Shown in pieces: positions 6,298 through 11,539 of a stretch of DNA of 64,000 bases. The stretch's first letter is position 1. Every line of letters starts with the position of its first letter. Location: assembly GCF_014197915.1 (NCBI RefSeq), contig NZ_JACIGK010000002.1:124001-188000 (forward strand), read 5' to 3'. Under the pieces are notes generated by a model, which saw only the letters and a list, made by a program, of their open reading frames with translations, did not search any database and was not told the origin of the DNA. The stretch is from Roseospira visakhapatnamensis (GTDB lineage Bacteria; Pseudomonadota; Alphaproteobacteria; Rhodospirillales; Rhodospirillaceae). Position numbers and translations under genes: made by a program.

Positions 6298-7323
6298 CTA
6301 TTCGCCCGTGTCCGCCCATCGGGGACACAGCGTCGCCTCCAGCGGCAGGTGATCGGAGCCCACGTCCGGTCCCACGGTCTGGGTGCCGGTGAAGGCATCG
6401 GCGCTGGGCGCCACGTAGTCGATCTGCACCCCCAAAACGGGCAGCCAGTTGGGGCGGGTGGTGGGCGGTGGAAACCCGTGATCCAGGTACCCCAACCCGG
6501 CCGTTTTCAGGAAGGCGTCGATGCGCGGGTTCCAGCGCACGCCGTTCAGGTCGGCGCCCAGGATGACCGGCCGGTCAAGCCCCGCCAGCACGTCCGCCAG
6601 CAGGGAGAGTTGCCGGTTCCGCGTCTTGTACAGCCCCTGGGTATAGGGACTGGACAGGTGCGCGGACACCAGCACCACCTCGCGGCCCTCCAGACGGGTG
6701 ACGGCGTGGATCATCCCGGAGGCCAGGAACAGGCGGTCGAAGACCGTCGTCAGTGTCGCGTCCACCGGCGACGCCACAAAGGGCAGGCGGCTCAGGATGG
6801 CCACATCGCGGCCCTCGCGCGTGACCTGATGTGGATAGTGGTGTCGCAGATGCTCCAGCATCCAGGGCCAGACGTGCCACTCGTTGTACTCCTGAAGGAA
6901 CACGACGTCGAAGGCTTCGGCTTCCAGGTAGTGGGTGAGGATCACGGGGGAATGGTTGACGCTCAGGATGTTGAGGCTGACCGCCCGCACCGGCCGCTCG
7001 CAGGGCGTCGCGGGCGTGTCGGCGAGCCCGGCGCCCACGGGCCGCGCCACCAGGGCCATGTTCACCCCGGCTAGGACGATCGCCAACACCGCCAGTCCGC
7101 GCCGCCCCCGGCTCGCCAGCCATGCCGCGAGAAGCAGCGCCAGCCCCGCCAGCAGATGGGCGGCGGACAGGATCACCTCCGACAGCCAGTAGGGCCAGAC
7201 GGTGGCCAGGGGCGGCGTGGCCACCATCACGAGGCCCGCCCAGGACACCCAGGGGCGGCGGTCGCCGGTGCCCGGCCGACGGGGCGGCGGCGCGGGCCGG
7301 CCGGGAGGCGCGTCTCTCATCAT
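6298..7323 (-). CDS. Membrane-anchored endonuclease/exonuclease/phosphatase family protein
   Basis: The protein has 341 residues. Three hydrophobic segments lie in the first 100 residues, after a Pro/Arg-rich cytoplasmic start. An EEP domain follows: SLNIL near residue 115, FLQEYNE (the metal-binding Glu), GADLNG with the catalytic Asp and Asn, and GSDHLPL near the end with the catalytic His. The EEP fold cuts phosphodiester or phosphomonoester bonds in DNA, lipids or sugar phosphates; the substrate cannot be told from sequence. It converges on meaB, with 7 bases between the stops. Confidence 0.85.
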   Translation of the reverse strand: MMRDAPPGRPAPPPRRPGTGDRRPWVSWAGLVMVATPPLATVWPYWLSEVILSAAHLLAGLALLLAAWLASRGRRGLAVLAIVLAGVNMALVARPVGAGLADTPATPCERPVRAVSLNILSVNHSPVILTHYLEAEAFDVVFLQEYNEWHVWPWMLEHLRHHYPHQVTREGRDVAILSRLPFVASPVDATLTTVFDRLFLASGMIHAVTRLEGREVVLVSAHLSSPYTQGLYKTRNRQLSLLADVLAGLDRPVILGADLNGVRWNPRIDAFLKTAGLGYLDHGFPPPTTRPNWLPVLGVQIDYVAPSADAFTGTQTVGPDVGSDHLPLEATLCPRWADTGE

Positions 7324-7381
7324 GTCCGGCGGCGCCCGCCTCGCCCGGGCCGGGTGGCGGTGCCGCGCCCGGCGGTGATGA

Positions 7382-8077
7382 TCATCGATAAAGCCACCAC
7401 ACGTCCTCGCTGGCCGCGAACACCGGCCGATAGTGCCGCACCGAGCGGGTCTCGATCACCGGGTCGATCTGGTTGTCGAGCAACAGGGTCTCGCCGGCCA
7501 GGGTGACCACCGTGACGGCGTGGCCGATACCCAGGTTCAGGTCCCGCACGGCGACGACCTTGAGCGCGTCGCCCGGAAAGCCCAGCGCGCGCAGGCTCAT
7601 GAACTTGGCGATGGCGTAGTCCTCGCAGTCGCCCGCCTTCACGAAGAACTCGCTGGGGGTCGTCCAGAAGTCCTCCCGCCCCCAATTGATGGGATCGGTA
7701 ATATACTCCCATTGGTTCACGAAGTCTTGGACCGCCTCGATCTGGGCCCGCGGCTCCCGGTCGCGGATTCGCGCGATCAAGGCGGACCATTCGGTGTGCG
7801 GACAGCCGTCGATGGGCGCGCCCGCCCCGCACGCGCTGTTTTCGCGCTCTTCCGCCTTCAGCCGCTCCAGCATGGTGGTCCATTGCGGCATCGGCGCGAA
7901 GTCCGTGTACGCCTTGCCGTCGCGGCCGAACAACCGGTCGTCGTCGGCCAACGCCGCCGGCGCGCCACACGCCAGGGTCATCGCCAGCAGCACGCCGGTG
8001 ACCCGGGCTAGGCCCGGCCGGCCGAGAGTCGCGGTCGCGGTCCCGCGGAGCGCGCTGGTCCAACGGGTTCGGTGCAT
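7382..8077 (-). CDS. LapG-type periplasmic transglutaminase-like cysteine protease
   Basis: This 231-residue protein belongs to the bacterial transglutaminase-like cysteine proteinase family (BTLCP, Pfam PF06035). It has an N-terminal signal peptide that ends near Ala-Leu-Ala-Asp (residue 45) and the catalytic triad Cys151 (AGDCEDY), His186 (GIGHAV) and Asp201 (LLDNQ). The best-known member, LapG of Pseudomonas, releases a giant surface adhesin unless it is held by the c-di-GMP receptor LapD. I chose the ATG at 8077 because it gives the signal peptide at the very N-terminus; the open frame runs further back over the divergent gene. It is divergent from a membrane receptor with a degenerate HD-GYP domain, 88 bases apart. 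Confidence 0.85.
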   Translation of the reverse strand: MHRTRWTSALRGTATATLGRPGLARVTGVLLAMTLACGAPAALADDDRLFGRDGKAYTDFAPMPQWTTMLERLKAEERENSACGAGAPIDGCPHTEWSALIARIRDREPRAQIEAVQDFVNQWEYITDPINWGREDFWTTPSEFFVKAGDCEDYAIAKFMSLRALGFPGDALKVVAVRDLNLGIGHAVTVVTLAGETLLLDNQIDPVIETRSVRHYRPVFAASEDVWWLYR

Positions 8078-8165
8078 GGCCGTGGATCGCCTGTTGCTGG
8101 TATGCTTGTCGCGCGCGATCGGACCCGATCGCCTTCGGACATGCTGGACACCAGGAGCGGGACCC

Positions 8166-10340
8166 ATGACGGCGCCCTCCGAAACGACGTCTCCGACACT
8201 CGATGCGATTGACGGTGGCGTCAAGACCAAGGTGACCGGGGCCCTGGTGCTCCTGGGCGTCCTGATGGCCGTCGGCCTGGGCGGCAGTCTCTGGTTCGCC
8301 GAGGCGGAGCGGCAGCGGGATATCCGCATCGTCCAGGCCCGCATGCGTGTGATCGCCGACAGCCGGGCCGAGGCCGTGCATGCCTGGATCCAGGCCCGCT
8401 TCGACGAACTGGGGGACCTGGCGCGCAACGAGTCCCTTCAGGTCTACACACGCGTGCTCGGCCCGCGCGACGATGGGCGGGTGTTCGACGACGACCCGGC
8501 GCTGCGTGCCTACCTGCGCACGCTGCTGACCGCCACCGCCCAGCGCGCCGGCTTCCGGCCCGCCGTTCCCGCCCATGACCTGCCGGCCAACGTCACGCCC
8601 GGCGGCGGCGCCGGCCTGGCCCTGGTGACCCCCGACGGCACGGGCATCGTCGCCTCGCCGGACATGCCGCCCATCGACGGCGCCCTGCGGGCGTTTTTGC
8701 ACAGGGTGCCCGTCGCCGACCGCGGCTTGTCTCCCCCGTATCGGGCCGCCGACGGTACCCCGGTGCTGGCCTTCGCCGTGCCCGTGCTGGCCCGGGGCGC
8801 CGACGGCGGCGGACGCCAGGTGATCGCCCGCGTGGTGGGCCTGCGGCCGTTCGGCGCCGAGGTGGCCGCCGCCCTTCGCCAGCCGGGCGACACCAGCGCG
8901 AGCGCCCACACCGCTCTCGTCCGCGCGGCGGGGGATCGCGTCCAGGTCCTGACGACGACGGCGGAGGATGGCGCGATTCTTGATGGATCGCGGGCCCTCG
9001 GCACCCCGGGTCTCGTGACCGCCGCCGCCGTGGCCGAGCCTGGAGGCTTCGTGGAGGGTGTGACCCACGCCGGGACCCCGGTGTTCGCGGTCAGCCGGGC
9101 GATTCCGGAGACGGACTGGGTCCTGGTCCACGCCCTCGACCGGGCCGAGGTCCTGGCCGCCAGCGCCACCCGCCGCGCCACCCTGCTCACCGTGCTGGTG
9201 CTGGTGGTGCTGGGCATGGGCGCGGGTGTGGTGGCGGTGTGGCGGCACGCGACCTCGGTGCGTGTCCGCGAGGCGGCGGAGCGCTACCGAGCCTCGTCAG
9301 CGCGTTTCCAGGCCATGTCCCGGTTCCTGGATGTGGTGACCGACACCCAGCCGCACGCGCTGTTCGTCACCGACGCCAACCAGACCCTGACCTTCGTCAA
9401 CCGGCGCGCGGCGGAGGTGATGGGCGCCCCCAAGGCCGATCTGACCGGCCGCGCGCTGGTGGCCATGCTCGGCCAGGACCGTGGACACGTCTACGCCGAA
9501 CTGGCGCGTGATGTGCTGACCTCCGGCCAGGATCGCACCCACACCGCCCAGTTCGACGACGGCGAGGGAGGAGGGGAGCCGGTGGTGTGGCGCTCCACCA
9601 GTTGTCGTCTGAACGGCATGGACGGCCGCGCGCCCGAGGTGCTGACCGCGATCGAGGACCGCACCGCCCTGGTGCGCGAGCGTCGCCGCCGGGAGCGCAA
9701 CACCCAGCAACTGATCGAGACCCTGGTCGGTCTGGTCGACGAACGGGATCCGGACTCCGCCCACCAGTCGCGTCATGTCACCCTGGTGGCCCGCACCATC
9801 GCCGAGGAGATGGGCCTTGACGCCCCGCTGGTGGCGGCGACCGATCAGGCCGCGCGGCTGGTGAACATCGGCAAGATCCGTGTTCCGCGCGCGCTGCTGA
9901 CCCGCCGGGGCGCGCTGTCCGACGCCGAGTTGCGGCAGGTTCGCGAAGCCCTGGACAGCGGTCCGGACATCCTGCGGGAACTCGAGTTCGATGGACCGGT
10001 GATCGAAACCCTGCGGCAGATCAACGAGCGGGTCGACGGCGGCGGTCGCCCGCTGGGTCTGTCGGGTGCCGACATCCTGCCGTCGGCCCAGGCCGTGGCG
10101 CTGGCCAACACCTTCGTGGCCCTGATCCGTCCCCGTGCCTTCCGCGCCGGTAAGTCGTTCGACGAGGCCGAGCGGATCCTGATGGGCGAGATCGACCGCC
10201 GCTTCGACCGGCGGCCCGTGCTCAGCCTGCTCAACACTCTGAACAACAAAGGGGGGCGGGACGCCTGGGCGGAGCTGGCCCGGCCGGATTCGGAGCATCT
10301 TATACCAACGGTCATTGAGAATGACCGTTGCAGTCCGTAG
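8166..10340 (+). CDS. Membrane receptor with periplasmic sensor, PAS and degenerate HD-GYP domain
   Basis: The protein has 724 residues. A membrane segment lies at about 22-44, a large periplasmic sensor region of Cache type at about 45-335, a second membrane segment near 340-362, a PAS domain around 395-500, and an HD-GYP-like domain at about 515-690. In the last, the canonical HD of LHDIGK is replaced by Val566-Asn567 (LVNIGK), and GYP is replaced by Gly-Arg-Pro (about 627-629) within a DGGG motif. It therefore lacks metal ligands needed for c-di-GMP hydrolysis and is more likely a binding or signalling domain. The ATG at 8166 begins the first protein-like segment; longer frames run into the divergent lapG-like gene. 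The final ten codons are encoded by a hairpin repeat. Confidence 0.82.
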   Translation: MTAPSETTSPTLDAIDGGVKTKVTGALVLLGVLMAVGLGGSLWFAEAERQRDIRIVQARMRVIADSRAEAVHAWIQARFDELGDLARNESLQVYTRVLGPRDDGRVFDDDPALRAYLRTLLTATAQRAGFRPAVPAHDLPANVTPGGGAGLALVTPDGTGIVASPDMPPIDGALRAFLHRVPVADRGLSPPYRAADGTPVLAFAVPVLARGADGGGRQVIARVVGLRPFGAEVAAALRQPGDTSASAHTALVRAAGDRVQVLTTTAEDGAILDGSRALGTPGLVTAAAVAEPGGFVEGVTHAGTPVFAVSRAIPETDWVLVHALDRAEVLAASATRRATLLTVLVLVVLGMGAGVVAVWRHATSVRVREAAERYRASSARFQAMSRFLDVVTDTQPHALFVTDANQTLTFVNRRAAEVMGAPKADLTGRALVAMLGQDRGHVYAELARDVLTSGQDRTHTAQFDDGEGGGEPVVWRSTSCRLNGMDGRAPEVLTAIEDRTALVRERRRRERNTQQLIETLVGLVDERDPDSAHQSRHVTLVARTIAEEMGLDAPLVAATDQAARLVNIGKIRVPRALLTRRGALSDAELRQVREALDSGPDILRELEFDGPVIETLRQINERVDGGGRPLGLSGADILPSAQAVALANTFVALIRPRAFRAGKSFDEAERILMGEIDRRFDRRPVLSLLNTLNNKGGRDAWAELARPDSEHLIPTVIENDRCSP
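10307..10329. repeat. REP-like hairpin overlapping the gene's stop region
   Basis: AACGGTCATT (10307-10316) and AATGACCGTT (10320-10329) form a perfect 10-bp stem with a GAG loop. The hairpin lies inside the last codons of the upstream gene, whose stop is at 10338-10340. It resembles a mobile extragenic palindrome that has moved into the 3' end of the gene, and it may also end transcription. No second copy was seen in this window. Confidence 0.65.
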
Positions 10341-10432
10341 CCGGCCACCCACGGCCGTATACTTGGGGTGGCCGGGTGGGGGAGCGGGCCGGTGCCGCTC
10401 GGCGGATGAGTCACACTCATCCGCCGCTGGGT

Positions 10433-11539
10433 TTACGTGAGGGGAGACCCGGCGCCGGACACCGGGACCGGCGCGCCCGCATCCGCGTCCCACCGCCACG
10501 CCGGGGCCGGCGACAGCAGGCGAAGGCCCCCCATCCAGCGGTCCAGCCCTCCCAGCGCCGCCCAGTCGGCGGCGCCGTCCAGCAGCCGGCGGCCGGTGTC
10601 GGTCATGGCCCAGGTGGCGCGGCGCTCCGGTCCTCCCTCGTCGGTGCGGACCACCGCCGGGGCCGGCCCCCGGGTCAGGCCCAGGATCACGGCGACGAAC
10701 ATGGCGTCACCCAGCGTGGGCTGGTCGTCGGTCTCCAGATAGGCCCGGAACAGCGCTCCCGTCGCCGCCGCGCCATCCCGCGCCGCCAGGGCGCGCAGGA
10801 TGCCGCGTTCGGTGACTCCCAGGCCGTCGCCGACCCAGGGCAGGTCCTGCAGCCAGCGGGTCAGGGCCGGCGACATGGTGGGCAGGCCCGGCACCGGTCC
10901 CCGGGCCAGCCGCGCCAGGGCGCGCGGCTCCGGCCGGCGCAGGGCGTCCCACACCCGCCGTCCCTGGGCCGTGAGGGTCGGCGTGACGGCCCGGCGGCGG
11001 TTCCACAGCAGGCGCAGGCGCTCGGGCGTCAACTCTCCCAGTCCTCGCACGCGCCCGACCACCGCGCCATCCCGCGCCGGATCATAGAGCACCAGCGCCA
11101 CCCGCTCGGCGAGCCCGCGTGCCCCATGCAGGGAATCCAGGACCCGCGCCAGGATCAATTGGTCGTAGGCATCGTGCTCGAACCAGAGGACGACGCGCGC
11201 ATAACGGTCCTCCGCCGCCAGTCCGGCGGCCTCGCCGGCCATGCGGGCGCGGGCCTCGGTGGGTGGCATGCCGTAGGCATCGGCGATGAAGGTCGCCCGC
11301 GTGTCCTGATACGCCCGCGCGGATCGGGTCGCGGGCACCGGTCCCTGGACCAGGGGATCGGCCACCTCCAGGAAATCGCCCTGGAAGCCGAGCGTGGCCA
11401 GCGCGTCGCGAATGTCGGAGCCGCAGCGGACATGCAGGGTCGATCTGTCGCCATCCGGCGCCGCGCGACGGGGGCCGGACCGCGCCCGGGCACCACCGGC
11501 CGTGGCCAGGGAGACGATGCCGTAGGGGGCGCTGGACAT
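10433..11539 (-). CDS. DUF1835 domain protein
   Basis: The protein has 368 residues. The N-terminal 130 residues match the DUF1835 pattern: a Leu-His-Val-Arg-Cys-Gly-Ser-Asp start, then PLVQGPVP and a Tyr-Gln-Asp-Thr-Arg segment, then WFEHDAYDQL. The C-terminal part is helical and unassigned. The biochemical role of the family is not known. I chose the ATG at 11539, 10 bases after the ftsK stop, because the conserved domain begins shortly after it; the open frame extends upstream only across ftsK. It is probably co-transcribed with ftsK. Confidence 0.75.
   Translation of the reverse strand: MSSAPYGIVSLATAGGARARSGPRRAAPDGDRSTLHVRCGSDIRDALATLGFQGDFLEVADPLVQGPVPATRSARAYQDTRATFIADAYGMPPTEARARMAGEAAGLAAEDRYARVVLWFEHDAYDQLILARVLDSLHGARGLAERVALVLYDPARDGAVVGRVRGLGELTPERLRLLWNRRRAVTPTLTAQGRRVWDALRRPEPRALARLARGPVPGLPTMSPALTRWLQDLPWVGDGLGVTERGILRALAARDGAAATGALFRAYLETDDQPTLGDAMFVAVILGLTRGPAPAVVRTDEGGPERRATWAMTDTGRRLLDGAADWAALGGLDRWMGGLRLLSPAPAWRWDADAGAPVPVSGAGSPLT

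Follow-up and report, generated by a model that had tools for sequence, protein, structure and literature searches.

The genes considered here form a divergent pair in a 64,000-nucleotide stretch of the Roseospira visakhapatnamensis genome (NCBI RefSeq assembly GCF_014197915.1, contig NZ_JACIGK010000002.1, positions 124,001 to 188,000 of the forward strand), referred to as the window. One encodes a LapG/DvhG-like periplasmic cysteine protease (7382..8077, minus strand, 231 amino acids) and the other a DvhD-like membrane receptor (8166..10340, plus strand, 724 amino acids, ATG at 8166). The pair is probably a switch of the DvhD-DvhG type, in which a catalytically dead HD-GYP receptor controls a LapG-type protease. 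DvhD is already known as a LapD substitute that controls DvhG in Desulfovibrio vulgaris, as described in PMC13090378. A sequence-only reading of the window had proposed that a receptor with an inactive HD-GYP domain takes the place of LapD. This proposal is supported by the conserved pairing, the fold and the closest known relatives of the two proteins, but the idea is not new; since DvhD/DvhG has been published, it amounts to a known system in a new organism. What is new is the conservation of the pair, its probable horizontal spread, two layouts of neighbouring genes and a proposed docking patch for LapG, which is the most useful new lead.

The protease and the adjacent receptor

The protease belongs to the Peptidase_C93/BTLCP family, PF06035, with a match of 58.1 bits against a cut-off of 27. 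Alignment of relatives places the catalytic triad at Cys151 (codon 7625..7627, within D150-C151-E152), His186 (7520..7522) and Asp201 (7475..7477), all on the minus strand. All 25 relatives in the alignment share these three residues without variation, as they do D150, E152 and D136, consistent with the intact triad that had been read from the sequence alone. The positions of D150 and E152 are those named for the calcium site of DvhG (PMC13090378). The N-terminus contains a hydrophobic stretch at residues 26-44 that ends in ALA, judged by eye to be a signal peptide. Among PDB sequences the closest is 4fgo (E 1.2e-22), labelled 'Periplasmic protein', which we take to be Legionella LapG.

The receptor, encoded on the plus strand, begins with a membrane helix at residues 27-45 (8244..8300) and has a second at residues 340-358 (9183..9239). 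These two hydropathy peaks bracket ∼293 periplasmic residues that are modelled as a dCache-type domain (residues 46-338, 8301..9179), with 9rc2 as the top PDB match. The cytoplasmic part consists of a PAS domain (residues 393-503, 9342..9674; PAS_4 PF08448, 2.5e-11) followed by a degenerate HD-GYP domain (residues 520-682, 9723..10211; HD_5 PF13487, 1.9e-25; PDB 9rc0/9rbz). The sequence-only reading had described a divergent membrane protein with a large periplasmic sensor, and its coordinates hold, while the PAS domain and the dCache fold of the sensor had been overlooked.

The motif positions of the HD-GYP domain were read from an alignment of the receptor with DvhD and a catalytic HD-GYP. 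Val-Asn replaces the His-Asp of the HD motif at residues 566-567 (9861..9866), and Gly-Arg-Pro replaces Gly-Tyr-Pro of the GYP motif at residues 627-629 (10044..10052), both on the plus strand. The HHE motif reads I619-N620-E621, and the aspartate of the late AD motif is replaced by N648. All metal-ligand positions checked in the receptor are replaced, comprising the histidine and aspartate of HD, both histidines of HHE, the aspartate of AD and the histidine of GHS. None of 20 rows, the receptor and 19 relatives, retains HD, and the earlier claim that the domain lacks catalytic residues survives a re-alignment that restores no catalytic site. The constancy of Asn567 among the loci described below is not used as evidence because it is partly a result of how those loci were selected.

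The 11 residues that contact cyclic di-GMP (c-di-GMP) in DvhD, a protein with canonical and bridging sites for this ligand, are given in PMC13090378 and were mapped onto the receptor through the alignment with DvhD. Four are identical (L584, R657, E675 and P574) and three are conservative replacements (L653, F659 and R527). With a pocket conserved in part only, at four plus three of the 11 positions, the receptor would probably bind c-di-GMP.

Relation to known systems

The closest known system is DvhD-DvhG of D. vulgaris (DVU1020-DVU1019), in which the LapG-like DvhG is controlled by DvhD in a system reconstituted in Pseudomonas fluorescens Pf0-1 without lapD and lapG, and DvhD is a functional substitute for LapD; DvhD bound c-di-GMP without hydrolysing it in vitro and has several metal ligands replaced (PMC13090378). 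Both systems share the order of periplasmic dCache, PAS and degenerate HD-GYP domains and a BTLCP partner with an intact Cys-His-Asp triad, and DvhD is the best PDB match for both halves of the receptor. By sequence, the nearest PDB entry is the DvhD PAS/HD-GYP structure 9rc0 (E 1.5e-29, or 5.6e-66 with the family profile). The data section of PMC13090378 assigns 9RC0 and 9RBZ to the PAS/HD-GYP part of DvhD and 9RC2 to its periplasmic dCache domain. A model of the periplasmic domain (mff7098605c54), built on 73 sequences with a mean predicted local distance difference test score of 87.9, places 9rc2 first in a Foldseek search among 350,542 chains (E 1.1e-9). VIA-align 2 also ranks 9rc2 first, with Z 20.1 and a root-mean-square deviation of 3.3 over 247 residues. 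The periplasmic sequence profile has three matches in the PDB, at E 0.24 or worse, all to cystathionine gamma-synthases; these were taken as chance.

A tree of 100 HD-GYP domains groups DvhD with a Ser-Gln-type family and the family of this receptor, apart from four catalytic HD-GYPs, with a Shimodaira-Hasegawa-like approximate likelihood ratio test (SH-aLRT) support of 99; its branches are long and its outgroup consists of these four rows only. The 100 domains derive from 111 kept rows; L042, L047, L060, L061, L123, L171 and L179, pieces shorter than 165 residues and identical rows were omitted from the tree. From the alignment A4, a length criterion removed L139, L151, L153 and L167, and L115, L147, L171 and L175 were dropped by choice.

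The differences from D. vulgaris are also clear. The HD motif reads Ser-Gln in DvhD and Val-Asn in the Roseospira receptor, several c-di-GMP contacts differ, and the receptor and protease genes are divergent in Roseospira. DvhG of D. vulgaris Hildenborough is membrane-anchored, unlike the Roseospira protease with its signal-peptide-like N-terminus, and signal peptides are present in most DvhG orthologues (PMC13090378). The Ser-Gln HD-GYP proteins at L100:461-2548 and L104:6586-9144 resemble DvhD in having Ser-Gln in place of HD; unlike the Roseospira receptor, they keep GYP and the late AD motif, lack the N-S-Y patch discussed below and fall in a separate clade. LapD-LapG of Pseudomonas fluorescens follows the same logic, with a receptor for c-di-GMP whose enzyme domains are dead and which acts across the membrane on a BTLCP protease. 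LapD differs in being composed of a periplasmic LapD/MoxY domain together with HAMP, GGDEF and EAL domains; the Pfam matches of the Roseospira receptor include none of these. The matches listed in a literature search include no DvhD/DvhG-type system outside Desulfovibrio.

Conservation and spread of the pair

Two overlapping samples were used for the study of conservation. Among 60 relatives, the receptor was called present at E 1e-30 in 24 and PF06035 in 27. Both genes occur in 23 relatives, PF06035 alone in four, the receptor alone in one and neither in 32 (Fisher p = 1.6e-11, uncorrected for kinship). The two genes lie side by side and divergent in 17 of the 23 relatives that have both, and on separate contigs in the other six. 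The second sample consists of 80 named loci, the best 80 among 163 that were confirmed in GTDB genomes, which were picked partly by the pattern around the degenerate HD site and share at least L106, L107, L119, L120, L134, L137, L153, L160, L163, L167 and L172 with the 60 relatives. A LapG match divergently adjoins the receptor in 61 of the 80 (60 by stricter spacing; the match at L141 is a fragment only). The adjacency of PF06035 and the receptor, which the sequence-only reading had put forward for checking, is thus conserved in both samples.

Outside the genus, the receptor is 44-52% identical to homologs in purple sulfur bacteria of the Chromatiaceae and 35-40% identical to those in the listed Alphaproteobacteria and unplaced bins. 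In the HD-GYP tree, 15 rows from the receptor's genus group and the Chromatiaceae form one clade (SH-aLRT 100). Since the receptor groups with those of Chromatiaceae, it has probably moved horizontally between Alphaproteobacteria and purple sulfur Gammaproteobacteria, as judged from these sequences. The protease is present at six of nine Chromatiaceae loci and absent at three Allochromatium loci. The DvhD-type replacement of LapD is therefore spread across both classes. The word Alphaproteobacteria is absent from the main text of PMC13090378, whose class-level figure may show part of this spread. DvhDG has been studied in one sulfate reducer (PMC13090378), and the many pairs found in purple and marine bacteria add power to comparative analysis.

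At L162, L173, L174, L177, L180, L182 and L184, mostly from Sneathiella, the strand that encodes LapG carries an additional, more distant LapG-like gene ∼6 kb away. The R. visakhapatnamensis genome harbors a second receptor on contig C18 (L038:8672-10546), 51% identical over residues 243-708, in which much of the first periplasmic part is deleted; contig C18 carries no PF06035 gene.

Candidate LapG-docking patches

PMC13090378 leaves the way in which DvhD restrains the protease unexplained; an AlphaFold 3 model there suggests that the dCache helix alpha1' may meet the protease. In the periplasmic model of the Roseospira receptor, the first long helix is broken at model residues 42-43 and followed by a short helix at model residues 44-53, which may correspond to alpha1' of DvhD by chain position rather than by coordinates. 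The short helix lies within residues 85-98 of the receptor (8418..8459, plus strand), proposed here as a LapG-docking element, patch 1, with the motif NxSxQxY (N88-x-S90-x-Q92-x-Y94). Among the 61 named loci at which LapG adjoins the receptor, N88, S90 and Y94 are all present in 60; at the remaining locus, L147, nothing aligns in this region. The receptor also keeps N-S-Y in eight genomes without an adjacent LapG, and all eight have a LapG match elsewhere, in one of them a piece of 50 residues at a contig end.

The Allochromatium receptors provide a natural experiment that hints at where LapG docks and suggests residues for mutagenesis. A genome-wide search with the LapG profile gives no match in two of the three Allochromatium genomes and a distant partial match of 116 bits in the third. 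In A. humboldtianum, A. palmeri and A. warmingii, residues 85-98 are only 14-36% identical to those of three LapG-bearing Chromatiaceae, compared with 50-79% in the other eight rows compared. The first helix, the remaining periplasmic part, the PAS domain and the HD-GYP domain of the Allochromatium receptors stay within the range of identity of those eight rows. A scan of 670 segments of 14 residues revealed two marked drops in Allochromatium, at residues 130-154 and 84-97, with the 141-154 segment ranked first and the alpha1' segment second. Residues 130-154 (ANV..G.AGLAL; 8553..8627, plus strand) constitute patch 2, which in Allochromatium has disappeared along with patch 1.

The patch 1 segment is also fully deleted in the C18 paralogue of R. 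visakhapatnamensis (G000), which is far from the only PF06035 gene of that genome, and in its sister G005:C142; the C18 paralogue lacks patch 2 as well. The events of patch loss are few: the three Allochromatium species probably represent one loss, and G000:C18 and G005:C142 are sisters in the tree. Taken together, the sequence comparisons suggest that the two periplasmic patches may form the face on which LapG docks, which stops short of proof because the independent events number perhaps only two.

Proposed mechanism, substrate and alternative explanations

In the proposed mechanism, the receptor, probably a dimer, would read cytoplasmic c-di-GMP via the catalytically dead HD-GYP domain behind PAS. 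At high c-di-GMP, a change in receptor shape would pass across the membrane and lead the periplasmic dCache domain to retain the LapG-type protease, with helix alpha1' and the second patch as the probable contacts. A fall in c-di-GMP would free the protease to cut a surface protein, most likely an adhesin, at AA-G, and the cell would leave the surface. Dimerization, the binding of c-di-GMP and of LapG, and the sign of control are what we infer.

Several observations weigh against this interpretation. The protease scores 83.8 bits against the LapG equivalog NF045674, whose cut-off is 320, and because of this shortfall it is classified only as a LapG/DvhG-like BTLCP protein. The dCache domain is a common fold, with many chemoreceptor and kinase domains at Z 16-18, and the receptor's periplasmic sequence profile finds no DvhD in the PDB, so that the likeness of this part is by fold alone. 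Four of the 11 DvhD contacts with c-di-GMP listed in PMC13090378 are altered in the receptor (Y523 to D530, K582 to L589, Y621 to R628 and R569 to A576). The patch 1 motif has exceptions: L071, which lies outside the 80 loci and has an adjacent LapG, carries alanine at position 90, and the L164 genome retains the asparagine and tyrosine, with serine changed to threonine, while no LapG was found there.

The remaining contrary evidence comes from the substrate. Profile searches of this genome, a 99-contig assembly, turned up no adhesin in which a retention module is combined with a TAAG site. The FecR-type adhesin profile has two matches, the better of which is in a 251-residue FecR-domain protein; the FecR-type matches inspected belong to short proteins. 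The sequence-only reading had suggested a search for large RTX adhesins with a LapG cleavage motif; four large RTX-type proteins are indeed present (on C29, C59 and C21), but none contains [TAP]AAG in this draft assembly. No gene above the cut-off was found for the type I secretion system (T1SS) exporter TIGR03375 among 78 genomic matches, the best lying on C29 near a 1411-residue RTX protein, and visual inspection of the open reading frames between 5000 and 13500 of the window showed neither an adhesin nor a T1SS gene. The two-partner secretion domain PF05860 is found in none of the six genomes of the genus and in one of the 12 genomes searched overall.

Two layouts of neighbouring genes bear on the substrate. 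An adhesin-like frame, called by an amino-acid composition rule and in several cases cut by a contig end, lies downstream of the receptor in 18 of the 80 named loci. Retention-type proteins do occur near the pair in some relatives: at L077, L087 and L140, the first and last of which are closely related (78% identical), the readable N-terminus shows a FecR-like domain and, after it, the LapG consensus TAAG (PMC13090378). In the other layout, a calcineurin-like phosphoesterase gene is found 3' of the receptor in the same direction in 21 of the 80 loci (20 by strict spacing), for example directly downstream at L107:10072-10953 and L135:9992-10915. Its product matches PF00149 and resembles ApaH and PPP phosphatases, under every NCBIfam cut-off. 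The Roseospira receptor groups by kinship with the phosphoesterase loci, yet the gene is absent beside it; the R. visakhapatnamensis genome holds one distant copy (C4, 44%).

The strongest alternative, although an unlikely one, is that the receptor controls the protease and the target in this purple-bacterial branch is a non-adhesin envelope substrate. The precedent is HvyA of Caulobacter, compared here by its published description, an alphaproteobacterial BTLCP cysteine protease that requires its Cys-His-Asp triad and controls the capsule (PMC4241560). Unlike in the Roseospira pair, the main regulation of HvyA is cell-cycle control of its abundance, and its target is capsulation (PMC4241560). 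In keeping with this alternative, the FecR-type adhesin profile has no match in G002, G003 and G004, its listed matches in G000, G001 and G005 cover the FecR part only, the genus lacks two-partner-secretion adhesins in the six genomes, and none of the 20 phosphoesterase loci has an adhesin-like frame within the stretches examined. In contrast, adhesins are the substrates of the D. vulgaris and Pseudomonas LapG proteases (PMC13090378). Adhesin genes are also long and rich in repeats, and draft assemblies may lack them. Further, the PDB sequence nearest to the protease, 4fgo, is presumably a LapG. A fuller version, held to be equally improbable, is that the purple-bacterial switch no longer depends on large FecR/RTX adhesins as its target, has gained a third gene, for a PPP-like phosphatase, that was lost again in this genome, gates a non-adhesin envelope substrate, and docks LapG via alpha1' and the ANV..G.AGLAL patch.

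It is considerably less probable that the two genes are merely neighbours, with the receptor serving another output through PAS/dCache sensing and the protease escaping its regulation. Receptors without an adjacent LapG make up 19 of the 80 named loci, and the R. visakhapatnamensis genome has the shortened receptor on C18 while its sole PF06035 match is the protease beside the main receptor on C2. However, six of the 19 loci end less than 700 bp upstream of the receptor, the divergent pairing is conserved, the patches decay in Allochromatium, and the eight genomes with an N-S-Y receptor not adjoined by LapG have a LapG match elsewhere that may serve it. Retention of phosphodiesterase activity by the HD-GYP domain, which would make it an enzyme rather than a receptor, is highly improbable: the domain retains the GK of HDxGK and the glutamate of HHE, but every metal ligand checked is replaced, as are several in the non-hydrolysing DvhD (PMC13090378).

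Other features

The retention module NF033682 has four matches in the genome below its cut-off; three were translated and are FecR-like or unclear proteins rather than adhesins, and the fourth is on C56. On C29 (L222:5346-13896), ABC transporter and HlyD-type genes lie beside the acidic 1411-residue protein, which contains RTX repeats, DUF4114 and GGGDTGGET repeats, has no TAAG, and is possibly a secreted surface protein. The RTX protein on C59 (L225:212-7864) is 2550 residues long and harbors subtilase, P-domain and cadherin-like domains.

The protease and receptor genes are separated by a divergent spacer of 88 bp (8078..8165), in which the consensus scan shows no sigma-70-like site; the promoter and terminator consensus scan of 7300-10600 likewise gave no sites. 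At the other end of the receptor gene, an interspersed repeat of ∼145 bp (10296-10440) overlaps its last codons and includes a 12-nucleotide inverted repeat at 10400-10426. The repeat has 73 genomic matches, of which many overlap or are partial, and pieces of it also lie where the frame of the C18 paralogue starts.

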